Source: an uncultured Clostridium sp.
GTDB taxonomy: Bacteria > Bacillota_I > Bacilli_A > RF39 > UBA660
Direction of reading: 5' to 3'
DNA length: 43,536 nt
Assembly: GCA_946414595.1 (NCBI GenBank)
Contig: CAMKPE010000014.1
Span: 1 to 43,536 of the forward strand
This document shows, one piece after another, positions 34,646 to 43,536 of this stretch (positions within the stretch are counted from its first letter, which is position 1; every line of letters starts with the position of its first letter). The notes under the pieces were generated by a model. The model was not told the origin of the DNA. It searched no databases and saw only the letters and a program-made list of their open reading frames with translations. Both the position numbers and the translations under genes were made by a program.

Positions 34646-35533
34646 TTAGAACAATGATATTTGTTCATTTTCTTTTATTTCTTTTTTATATGCTTTAATA
34701 ATATCATTCATATTATATAAAATCCCATATTTATCACATTCGTTAGTAAATACTTTATAAAGATATTTATAGTTAGGGACAACACAATTATATCTTTCAC
34801 CATAATACTTAATATACTTTTCTTTTAAACCATTAAAGTATTTATCTAATTGTTCAAAGTAATAATCTCTTTGATTTTCTCTTAAAGTCATTCCCATAAA
34901 AGTATGAATAAATTTAGCGCCACTTTCATGTGCAAGTCTAACAAGTTTTTTAATATCTTCTTCATTATCAGTTATAAATGGTAATACGGGATTCATTAAA
35001 ATTCCCGTAAATATTCCATTATCACTCAATTCTTTAATAGCTTTAAATCTTTTAGATGATACACATACATGTGGCTCAATTATTTTAGATAATAGATCAT
35101 TTGGAGTTGTTATTGTAAATTTAACAATTACATTATTCTTCTCATTTATTTCTTTTAATAAATCTAAATCTCTAAGTATTAAATCACTTTTAGTATCTAT
35201 AGATACTCCAAAGTTATATTTTGCTAAAAGTTTTAATGCTCCTCTTGTTTGTTCATATTTAATTTCATTTGGATTATAAGTATCTGACATTGATCCAATA
35301 CCTACAACACCATGATCAGTTTTTTTACTCAATTCTTTTTCAAGTAATAAAAGAGCATTCTCTTTCCCTTTAGGTACATCAAAATTATCTATGTGATAAC
35401 AATTACTTCTACTATCACAATAAATACAACCATGAGAACAACCTCTATATAGATTTATTTTGTAATCTATACCAAACCATTCATTCCCATATTTTTCTTT
35501 AGATAAAATTGTCTTAGCACTTAAAAATTCCAT
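34646..35533 (-). CDS. SPL-like radical SAM protein (Rv2578c family) with terminal clamp-like motif
   Basis: The cluster motif is CSHGCIYCD (three Cys around residues 32-39) after the family start AKTILSK. GVGSMSDTYNP-type and ILMNPVLPFITDN blocks are typical of spore-photoproduct-lyase-like and Rv2578c proteins. The last five residues are QISLF, close to the beta-sliding-clamp motif QL(S/D)LF, which would suit a DNA-acting enzyme. No spore genes are around, so true photoproduct lyase activity is doubtful. It lies in an operon with mscS, GNAT and TfoX-N. Confidence 0.85.
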   Translation of the reverse strand: MEFLSAKTILSKEKYGNEWFGIDYKINLYRGCSHGCIYCDSRSNCYHIDNFDVPKGKENALLLLEKELSKKTDHGVVGIGSMSDTYNPNEIKYEQTRGALKLLAKYNFGVSIDTKSDLILRDLDLLKEINEKNNVIVKFTITTPNDLLSKIIEPHVCVSSKRFKAIKELSDNGIFTGILMNPVLPFITDNEEDIKKLVRLAHESGAKFIHTFMGMTLRENQRDYYFEQLDKYFNGLKEKYIKYYGERYNCVVPNYKYLYKVFTNECDKYGILYNMNDIIKAYKKEIKENEQISLF

Positions 35534-37431: not shown

Positions 37432-37463
37432 TTTAATCACCATTATAATTATATCAAATTCAA

Positions 37464-37491
37464 ATAAAAAAACTAGTCACCAAACTAGTTT
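37464..37491 (-). terminator. Terminator of the TraX-like gene
   Basis: On the minus strand an AAACTAGT/ACTAGTTT stem with a 6-nt loop is followed by a T-tract. It belongs to a set of ACTAGT hairpins in this window. Confidence 0.82.
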
Positions 37492-37500
37492 CTTTAATCC

Positions 37501-38304: not shown

Positions 38305-38379
38305 TCTTATTCCTCATTTCTTTTTATTACAACTTCAAAGACACCCTTTGATAACATGATTTTATCATATAACTAAAAC

Positions 38380-38406
38380 AAAAAAAACTAGTCATTTGAC
38401 TAGTTT
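38380..38406 (-). terminator. Terminator of the second GNAT gene
   Basis: On the minus strand AAACTAGTCA/TGACTAGTTT is followed by eight T. The hairpin matches that at 40366. Confidence 0.85.
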
Positions 38407-38408
38407 CA

Positions 38409-38900
38409 TTATTTATTAAAAACTATATCTAAATATACATGAGTATCATCTTCATTATATTTCTTAAATCCTAATCTTTCATATAATTTCTTAGCAGGAT
38501 TCAATTTATAAGTTTTTATAATTATACGTTTTTTATCATCTTTAGCAATTTTAATATATTCACTTATTATTTTTGATCCTATTCCTAAGTTTTGACAATC
38601 AGGATGTACCATAATTAGTCCTACTACATACTCACCATTTTCTTCATAAAATGTAGTAACACCAACATCCTTATTGTTATACTTAATTATTTTCATGTCA
38701 TCTTTGTGTTGTTCTAATTCCTTTTTAGTTAGTTTTCTTTGTACATCAAAATCCCATCCATAGATTATTTCAATGTACCATCTTAAACACAAATCTTTTA
38801 AATATAAAATATATTCACAATCATCTAATGTAGTATCTCTAAATGATAAAAAATCATATTTTTCTTTTATTGTATTAATTGCAGTTTCTATATAATTCAT
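38409..38900 (-). CDS. GNAT-family N-acetyltransferase
   Basis: Acetyl-CoA loop QNLGIGSKIISEYI and the final AKKLYERLGFKKY, with VGLIMVHPD before. The start is ATG 38900 (MNYIET) after AAGGTGAT; a frame to 38909 overlaps it. It lies 31 bases downstream of the zinc-ribbon gene without a terminator between them, so they are probably co-transcribed. Substrate unknown. Confidence 0.88.
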   Translation of the reverse strand: MNYIETAINTIKEKYDFLSFRDTTLDDCEYILYLKDLCLRWYIEIIYGWDFDVQRKLTKKELEQHKDDMKIIKYNNKDVGVTTFYEENGEYVVGLIMVHPDCQNLGIGSKIISEYIKIAKDDKKRIIIKTYKLNPAKKLYERLGFKKYNEDDTHVYLDIVFNK

Positions 38901-40365: not shown

Positions 40366-40393
40366 AAAAAAAAACTAGTCATTTGACTAGTTT
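40366..40393 (-). terminator. Terminator of the GGDEF gene
   Basis: On the minus strand AAACTAGTCA/TGACTAGTTT is followed by nine T, with the same 22-base hairpin as at 38380. Confidence 0.85.
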
Positions 40394-40407
40394 ATTATAT
40401 TTATCTA

Positions 40408-42012: not shown

Positions 42013-43125
42013 TTAATCACTTACATCAATATCTAAGTTAATATCAATCTTATAACCTTTATATTTATTTTGAACTTCATCATAGATTTCTTTATAAACT
42101 TCTTCTCTATTCTTTATTTTAAAATCAATAATTATGTCAAAACTAATACTCTTGTCTTCCTCATCTAGATAAAAACCATGCATTTGTAATATTCCTTCGT
42201 GAGAAAATACTATTTTTGCAACTTCTTTTTTTGTCTCTATTACTTTTTTATCTTTAGTATTTACTGAATAAACTCCAATTGTATGTAATATAACACCATA
42301 CTTTTTTAAAATTGTTTTAGTTATTTTTCTAGATAGTTTATCTATATCAGCAACTGATAAAGTATCAGCAACTTCAATATGAATTGATCCTAAATATTTA
42401 TCTGGTCCATAATCATTTAAAACTAAATCATAAGCACCTTGTATATCTTTTTCTTTTGTAATTTCTTTTTTAATTGATTTAGCTAAATCACTTTCAACTC
42501 TTACACCTAACATGTTATCTACTGATTCTTTAATTAACTCAATACCTGCTTTAATAATAAAGATAGATAATATTACACCAACATAGGCTTCTAAGCTTAA
42601 ATCAAATAACATATAAATTATTGCTGATGCTAAAACTGAAATTGATAGTATTGCATCATTAAATGCATCTGATCCACTAGCAACTAACGAATCTGAATTT
42701 ACATCTTTTCCTTTTTTCTTAACATAAAGTCCTAAAGCAAATTTAACTACTATACCTGCTATTAAAATTATTAAAGTTATTGTACTGTAATCTGCTACTT
42801 CTGGATTAATAATCTTTTTTATAGATTCCACCAAAGCAGTAATACCAGCATATAAAACGATTGCCGAAACAACTAAAGATGTCATATATTCAATTCTTCC
42901 ATATCCATATGGATGTTTTCTATCAGGCGCCTTTCCTGCTAATTTAGTTCCTACTATTGTGATAATACTTGATAAAGCATCACTTAAATTATTTACAGCA
43001 TCAGAAATAATTGCAATAGAATTAGCTAGGAATCCTACAAATGCTTTAAACCCTGCAAGTATTATATTAGCAATAATACTAATTATACTTGTTTTAATAA
43101 CCACTTTTTCACGATTATTTTTCAT
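42013..43125 (-). CDS. Cation diffusion facilitator, possibly manganese-selective
   Basis: Six membrane helices of the CDF family. The metal site in helix 2 reads N45-N-L-S-D49 (SDAVNNLSD) and in helix 5 DAFND (DxxxD); no His is present, which in this family points to Mn rather than Zn. HPYGYGRIEYM after helix 2 is the family loop. The cytoplasmic part is about 170 residues, long enough for two ferredoxin-like domains, unlike the usual single one. It is probably monocistronic or reads into the lipoprotein gene. Confidence 0.9.
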   Translation of the reverse strand: MKNNREKVVIKTSIISIIANIILAGFKAFVGFLANSIAIISDAVNNLSDALSSIITIVGTKLAGKAPDRKHPYGYGRIEYMTSLVVSAIVLYAGITALVESIKKIINPEVADYSTITLIILIAGIVVKFALGLYVKKKGKDVNSDSLVASGSDAFNDAILSISVLASAIIYMLFDLSLEAYVGVILSIFIIKAGIELIKESVDNMLGVRVESDLAKSIKKEITKEKDIQGAYDLVLNDYGPDKYLGSIHIEVADTLSVADIDKLSRKITKTILKKYGVILHTIGVYSVNTKDKKVIETKKEVAKIVFSHEGILQMHGFYLDEEDKSISFDIIIDFKIKNREEVYKEIYDEVQNKYKGYKIDINLDIDVSD

Positions 43126-43153
43126 GATTACACCTCATATAATAAATATATCA

Positions 43154-43178
43154 CAAAAAAACTAGTTCTCACTAGTTT
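43154..43178 (-). terminator. Terminator behind the tRNA-Arg fragment
   Basis: On the minus strand an AAACTAGT/ACTAGTTT hairpin with a 4-nt loop is followed by seven T, 11 bases past the CCA end of the tRNA fragment. It was probably the terminator of the intact tRNA gene. Confidence 0.8.
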
Positions 43179-43189
43179 CTTTTCATAAA

Positions 43190-43234
43190 TGGTGTCCCGG
43201 AAGGGATTCGAACTCTTGACCGACGCCTTAGAAG
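43190..43234 (-). other. 3' half of a tRNA-Arg(UCU) gene, probable attachment site
   Basis: The minus strand reads an anticodon loop CTTCTAA (anticodon TCT), the 3' anticodon stem, a five-base variable loop, a T-arm with TTCGAAT loop, seven acceptor bases, A and CCA. The sequence before the loop is AAAAA, which cannot pair with the stem, and no 5' half follows upstream, so the gene is cut at the anticodon loop. The T-stem has an A-C mismatch, a sign of decay. This is the usual trace of a tyrosine integrase that uses a tRNA 3' half as core site; the element should lie to the right. Confidence 0.8.
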
Positions 43235-43318
43235 TTTTTCGAGATTATTATTCCCACATTCATTTTAGTCTTATTTTACAGGTGTTTTAGGAGATGCTAT
43301 TTTAAGTCAAAAGAAAAA

Positions 43319-43342
43319 TCGCCATAAAACGTCGCCATAAAA
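43319..43342. repeat. Direct repeat next to the tRNA fragment
   Basis: Two copies of TCGCCATAAAA, 13 bases apart, lie about 85 bases inside the presumed element end. Short direct repeats at such distance can be integrase arm sites; nothing else supports this. The surrounding 43235-43379 holds no gene I can see. Confidence 0.5.
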
Positions 43343-43379
43343 ATAATCTTTTTGTTCGTAATATCTAAATCTTCCGAGC

Positions 43380-43406
43380 ATTTTAAAAGCTCCAAAACTG
43401 GAGCTT
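43380..43406 (-). terminator. Terminator of the partial gene at the right edge
   Basis: On the minus strand an AAGCTCCA/TGGAGCTT stem with a 4-nt loop is followed by TTAAAAT, a weak T-tract. Confidence 0.7.
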
Positions 43407-43411
43407 ATTTG

Positions 43412-43536
43412 TTATTCAGTTGGTTCTTTTGTTAAATTAATATTAATGAAATATGCCAATTTACCTTTGTAAGTAAATAGTATATCATATTTCCCTTCTG
43501 GATAATCCATATTAACATATCCATTTCCAACATACT
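43412..43536 (-). CDS. C-terminal end of an unknown protein, 5' part beyond window
   Basis: An open frame enters from the right edge and stops with TAA at 43412. The last 41 residues look like a beta strand-rich domain end (GYVNMDYPEGKYDILFTYKG, then FININLTKEPTE). No family can be named from this. Its position next to the tRNA fragment makes it the outermost gene of the presumed integrated element. Confidence 0.6.
   Translation of the reverse strand, partial: YVGNGYVNMDYPEGKYDILFTYKGKLAYFININLTKEPTE

Follow-up and report, generated by a model that had tools for sequence, protein, structure and literature searches.

CIMEs carry cargo between att sites without an integrase of their own, stand in tandem at the 3' ends of genes and tRNA genes and bear copies of their target ends; sections of two reports describe CIMEs and microCIMEs as common in tandem at gene 3' ends of streptococci (PMC7563491, PMC5704250). 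In the class A tRNA islands of Islander, the 3' tDNA is displaced from the anticodon loop and the intact tDNA is on the 5' side. Crossover centred on the anticodon is a known class, with 2083 islands vs. 1836 in the T-stem region, in the figures given in an extract of the Islander report (PMC4383910). The dif/pdif modules of Acinetobacter are flanked by 28-nt near-palindromic sites, inverted around each module. Integrons are arrays of genes, each followed by a site that abuts the stop codon, with varied cargo. Recombinase-mediated cassette exchange with heterospecific sites (i.e., same arms, different centres, an inverted pair around the cassette) is an engineering method.

The window considered here, i.e., the whole stretch of DNA that was analysed (43,536 nt), is the entire contig C14 of a 38-contig, 1.44-Mb assembly (G000; G, C and L numbers designate genomes, contigs and loci). 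All data are MAGs, and their contigs are often broken at arrays. The favoured account, to which a probability of about 70% is given, is that the right end of the window holds the tRNA scar of a cargo-only, CIME-like element that belongs to a modular family of ruminant-gut Bacilli, the modules being bounded by two 28-nt sites named L and R. As an event the scar is ordinary, and the elements resemble CIMEs in the traits given above. They share other traits with each of the systems described and differ from: (i) CIMEs, in that the cargo is bounded by 28-nt L/R sites, a further layer that recurs in elements aimed at different genes, and in that the elements go down to one gene; (ii) class A islands, in that complete elements have no integrase gene; (iii) Acinetobacter modules, by attachment modules placed at the ends of chromosomal genes, by centres of two fixed types and by L/R arms that differ from those of the putative local dif; (iv) integrons, by single short sites and by the fact that no integron integrase was identified, the scanned tyrosine recombinases matching Pfam Phage_integrase, a domain that cannot separate IntI; (v) engineered cassette exchange, in that the L/R system is natural and its reaction is deduced from comparison. 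Judged from titles and abstracts, most subscription papers and preprints being outside the coverage, such sites are undescribed in rumen Bacilli. As far as searched, an apparently orthogonal short-site pair that bounds both cargo and attachment modules is likewise undescribed in this group.

The features at the right end of the window are as follows.

42013 to 43125, minus strand: cation-efflux (CDF) transporter gene, the first gene past the scar, in the flank and outside the element
about 43153 to 43180, minus strand: intrinsic terminator AAACTAGT...ACTAGTTT with a T run, behind the tRNA half, read from the sequence
43190 to 43234, minus strand: 3' half of tRNA-Arg(UCU), displaced, running from anticodon-loop position 32 to the encoded CCA
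43235 to 43353, minus strand: conserved element tail (putative attP arm) with direct repeats TTATGGCGA, kept in G002 and in G007 (twice)
43354 to 43381, minus strand: 28-nt R-type site ATGCTCGGAAGATTTAGATATTACGAAC, from site alignment and profile search
43385 to 43411, minus strand: terminator hairpin of the cargo gene, read from the sequence
43412 to 43536, minus strand: 3' end (125 nt) of the cargo gene, cut by the contig end, with homologues in relatives

The 45-nt fragment covers the anticodon loop CTTCTAA (anticodon TCT) and the 3' anticodon stem, then the variable loop, the T arm, the acceptor strand and the encoded CCA, as read directly. No tRNA was found in the window by ARAGORN or Rfam (gathering scores). 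The 45-mer was searched at ≤3 mismatches in 12 genomes of the genus, G000 included, and matches were obtained in 10 of them. An intact tRNA-Arg(UCU) is called by ARAGORN in G001, G002, G005, G006, G007, G008, G009 and G010. In seven of these intact genes (G001, G002 and G006-G010) the 45 nt are identical to those of the window, the intact copy of G005 differs by two changes, and a copy of G004 with identical 45 nt is cut by a contig end. The tRNA-Arg(UCU) 3' half starting in the anticodon loop, as proposed by the sequence-only reading, is thus real. The original terminator that was placed behind it is found as the hairpin and T run listed above, and a comparable hairpin stands 3' of most, not all, of the tRNA-Arg copies compared across relatives. 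On the other hand, a T-stem mismatch had been interpreted as decay. This is wrong: the A.C pair is present in every exact intact copy and is thus native. Terminators of the AAACTAGT..ACTAGTTTTTTT type, like the one behind the tRNA, also occur in the window at about 37459-37495, 38376-38410 and 40366-40396.

The 5' half is missing in the copy of G000, in one of G002:C20 that differs by one change and in two of G007:C50, one exact and one with two changes. These fragments are always preceded by the same conserved tail. The aligned region (tail plus tRNA half) has a mean column identity of 81%. Among 59 genomes searched, full-length tail matches are confined to the fragment sites in G000, G002 and G007:C50; the other tail matches are short (50 nt or less). 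G007:C50 reads in the order intact tRNA, 1.25-kb unit (one gene), fragment, 1.96-kb unit (two genes), fragment, i.e., the fragments sit 1.25 kb and 3.2 kb downstream of the intact tRNA-Arg(UCU), as displaced 3' tDNA in the correct orientation to the intact tDNA. The G007 elements, like the rlmCD elements of G137:C3, have kept their att sites and contain no integrase or transfer genes, which is what defines a CIME. Neither L nor R is recognisable in the first G007 element. G002 has the tailed fragment near one contig end and the intact tRNA near another. Genes upstream of the tRNA are syntenic in 8 genomes, and downstream genes are common to none. Since the agreement of the fragment with the intact gene starts within the 7-nt anticodon loop, the crossover is placed in this loop. 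No scar is present beside the CDF gene in G004. In the same genome, a T-box-like leader (recognised by eye) follows tRNA-Arg(UCU) at a distance of about 100-330 nt, on the minus strand (locus L036, G004:C8).

These relatives (G007:C50, G002 and the one-sided synteny) support an integration scar in the anticodon loop with the element to its right. The element had been expected to lie entirely outside the window, which nevertheless includes its last 302 nt (43235-43536). The prediction of an intact tRNA-Arg(UCU) at the far end holds in G007:C50, the window's own contig ending before the far end, and the prediction of an adjoining integrase gene fails, since neither of the two complete G007 elements (1.25 and 1.96 kb) has one. 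It had also been proposed that the lack of a second copy of the 45 nt would refute integration. No second copy is present in the G000 assembly at ≤3 mismatches, and no intact tRNA-Arg(UCU) is among its 15 tRNA matches. This absence is formally what was proposed but is not deciding, because the window is a whole contig that stops 302 nt beyond the fragment, a rebuilt far-end tRNA thus being invisible. A partial tRNA at G000:C13:16-50 was considered as the missing Arg half and belongs to a different tRNA. The 5' flank (GerM-like protein of G007) is unmatched in the G000 assembly, so that the other side of the gap is not located. Another contig of G000 stops a few nt past a tRNA-Gly(UCC) (locus L285, G000:C11:46000-48436). 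This gap may hide another array, since in G007:C38 a tRNA-Gly(UCC), identified by eye, precedes an L site and its array.

Fifteen 28-nt sites were aligned and the resulting profile was searched in the 12 genus genomes. G000, G001, G002, G003, G004, G005 and G007 gave matches at E<1e-3, and five genomes gave none. With an exact degenerate pattern, 89 stretches were retrieved from GTDB genomes; nearly all of them come from MAGs that bear the names of ruminant or gut Bacilli, Erysipelotrichaceae, Bacillales or Tenericutes. The exceptional labels are few (two Saccharibacteria, one Ruminococcus and one Clostridia among them) and may be binning errors. In the 80 loci analysed from this set, a weight matrix gave 153 sites vs. 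0 in the same sequences reversed. At the level of the order, a site match at E≤1e-5 was found in 28 of 288 genomes and 18 of 102 genera. Phages were considered as carriers of the element and rejected, the tRNA pattern and the R pattern both giving 0 matches in IMG/VR.

The de-duplicated count is 225 unique sites over 120 loci. Each site is near-palindromic, a short centre being flanked by inverted arms; L and R have like arms and different centres. By the two central letters, 162 sites are R (AG), 57 are L (CT) and 6 are neither, the R:L ratio being biased because loci were found through the R pattern or the profile. Orientation and position relative to stop codons are independent of the search design. 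Neighbouring L/R pairs are inverted in 65 cases out of 65, as are the 28-nt flanking sites of dif/pdif modules, and neighbouring R/R pairs have the same direction in 46 out of 46; the remaining adjacent pairs are one L/L and 8 with an unclassed site. R lies within −28 to +30 nt of a stop codon for 109 of the 141 testable sites (i.e., those of the 162 with an upstream ORF on the strand, the other 21 having none) vs. 60 of 671 random control positions.

In the R-to-L intervals, L is often immediately preceded by a duplicate of a conserved gene's 3' end and terminator. Target-end copies are found 34-177 nt behind R for rlmCD, secA and tRNA-Arg. The rlmCD-type methyltransferase (Pfam tRNA_U5-meth_tr) of G137:C3 is present as an intact gene plus three displaced copies, secA end copies (named by eye from the protein) occur in G001:C21 and G007:C47, and end copies of a gene ending in QAAIKAKNNK or similar occur in loci L144 and L252. 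A longer R-L interval, in locus L215, contains a compact IME with helix-turn-helix proteins, a tyrosine integrase and a Mob_Pre relaxase. The same IME genes are present in G000:C32, up to its L site, this Mob/Int-bearing IME thus lying on a different contig from the window element. The R-L interval of locus L213 contains a serine recombinase fragment and other genes. Several other R-L intervals hold cargo-like genes, and the division between attachment and cargo is therefore not absolute.

The L-R and R-R cargo consists of ordinary accessory genes and comprises lipoproteins, XRE and TetR regulators, an acetyltransferase, radical SAM and NUDIX proteins and ZIP and MatE transporters. A 1049-aa protein, similar to GajB/UvrD helicases according to PADLOC, starts 50-51 nt behind R in three loci and is defence-like cargo; two of its positions are the following.

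L253, 139 to 3288: 1049-aa GajB/UvrD-like protein, behind an R site
L296, 6943 to 10092: 1049-aa GajB/UvrD-like protein, behind an R site

The window itself contains a radical SAM gene (34646-35533, minus strand) with no adjoining L or R site. Its homologues (84-85% DNA identity) in G002:C20, G309:C17 and G023:C6 are site-bounded cargo, with the stop codon just before R.

Homology breaks were scored in all-against-all alignments. Of 384 testable alignment ends, 97 are ≤20 nt from a site centre; for random points drawn within these alignments, the figure is 108 of 3840. A TetR-GNAT-radical SAM cassette (L to R, 2.4 kb, 92% identical) stands behind yebC in G309 and next to an integrase region in G023. 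Loci L263 and L288 share an L-gene-R cassette that is 96.5% identical, and loci L154 and L243 an R-gene-R cassette that is 83.6% identical. The cargo 3' end of the window recurs at 87-90% DNA identity in G001:C21, G005:C28 and G007:C46, adjoining R sites, and in each case the similarity ends at a distance of 8-16 nt from the site centre. The G001 homologue of this gene has no Pfam match. The window cargo thus adjoins R in G000 (tRNA-Arg), in G001:C21 (secA) and in G005:C28. The same cargo is thus borne by different attachment modules. At the yebC locus, L and R are present and a displaced yebC end was not found in the roughly 19 kb inspected. This absence speaks against the favoured account, as do the lack of sites in the first G007 element, the cargo-like genes of several R-L intervals and the fact that no integrase for tRNA-Arg was found.

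The mechanism that would account for these observations is the following: (i) a small element entered the anticodon loop of tRNA-Arg(UCU) by site-specific recombination and displaced its 3' half; (ii) the tyrosine integrase would be supplied in trans, attP presumably carrying the same 45 nt; (iii) the element is cargo-only and CIME-like, i.e., an attachment module plus one or few cargo genes; (iv) attachment or mobility modules lie between R and L, and cargo modules in L-R or R-R intervals; (v) since the arms are common and the central bases different, a single recombinase could act on both kinds of site and yet pair each kind only with itself; (vi) a given cargo could thereby pass from one attachment module to another, whether the target is tRNA-Arg, secA, rlmCD or the 3' end of another gene. 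The sequences show the scar, the tandem elements, the regularities of the sites, the homology breaks at them and the sharing of cargo between attachment modules, whereas the exchange itself and the identity of both recombinases are inferred. Natural cassette exchange at two orthogonal sites is what the compared sequences suggest. It is tentatively proposed, with a little less than even chances, that ruminant-gut Bacilli have a natural recombinase-mediated cassette-exchange system in which L and R flank interchangeable cargo and attachment modules, cargo can be re-aimed and arrays are separated by R. If so, integration specificity and cargo would be separate, exchangeable parts, as engineers build them with heterospecific sites, and the L/R recombinase could serve as a useful tool. 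One tRNA scar opens a view on gene trade among small-genome rumen Bacilli, and the cassettes can be counted in metagenomes because the sites are short and recognisable.

The cargo-only tandem elements match the description of CIMEs, and they could be no more than classical decayed genomic islands or CIMEs that have lost their integrase, the 28-nt sites being incidental repeats inherited with the element ends. This explanation is rather unlikely, because R also separates cassettes with no target-end copy seen between them (46 direct R/R pairs), the same sites are found on elements with different targets, and homology breaks occur at the sites.

About as doubtful is the possibility that L and R are XerCD targets, a Gram-positive version of the Acinetobacter modules moved by host Xer recombinases. 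The size and structure of the sites, with two inverted arms and a short centre, and the position of modules between inverted sites agree with it, given the dif structure and the modules described in one report (PMC12907356). Two Xer-like recombinases are present in most genomes. However, a dif-like 28-mer, ACTTCCTATAATTAAAGTTATGTTGCCT, which is likely the chromosomal dif of the genus, is found near xer, exact in G003, G004, G005 and G009 and with one change in G000.

L277, 9483: dif-like 28-mer ACTTCCTATAATTAAAGTTATGTTGCCT, near an xer gene
L279, 3625: the same
L281, 9701: the same
L282, 9850: the same
L284, 9316: the same

Its arms are unlike those of L or R, which makes the host Xer pair less likely. 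L and R were also considered as the host dif itself and rejected, a Firmicutes dif pattern matching 1 of 12 genomes with 3 mismatches and the putative genus dif being different.

For the favoured exchange at L and R, no recombinase was found that co-occurs with all site-bearing genomes; the tyrosine recombinases of G003, which has sites, are its two Xer-like ones only. One candidate is a 321-aa tyrosine recombinase, intact in G001:C45. A copy in G005:C28 (locus L144, 9041-9697), which closes an array and directly follows an R site, lacks about 100 internal residues, in frame. Another candidate is a 409-aa-type serine recombinase (Pfam Resolvase, Recombinase and zinc ribbon), which starts 38-89 nt past R in 6 of 12 cluster members and 210 nt past it in one more. 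From this position it could be supposed that a serine-integrase element has L as its attL and R as its attR, with the integrase gene beginning directly after R. This is improbable and the model was rejected: other genes follow most R sites, and the attB-like and attP-like hybrids predicted from L x R are absent at ≤2 mismatches, with 23 exact L and 94 exact R (redundant loci included). As for a chance or pseudogene tRNA fragment with no element involved, the single copy of the 45 nt in G000 agrees with it, but it is excluded for practical purposes by the like fragments that stand with the same tail in G002 and, past the intact gene, at two places in G007.

It must be added that two small contigs of G009 (C59, locus L101, and C61, locus L102) contain each three neighbouring tyrosine recombinase matches, a set which we take to be reminiscent of recombinase-in-trio elements.
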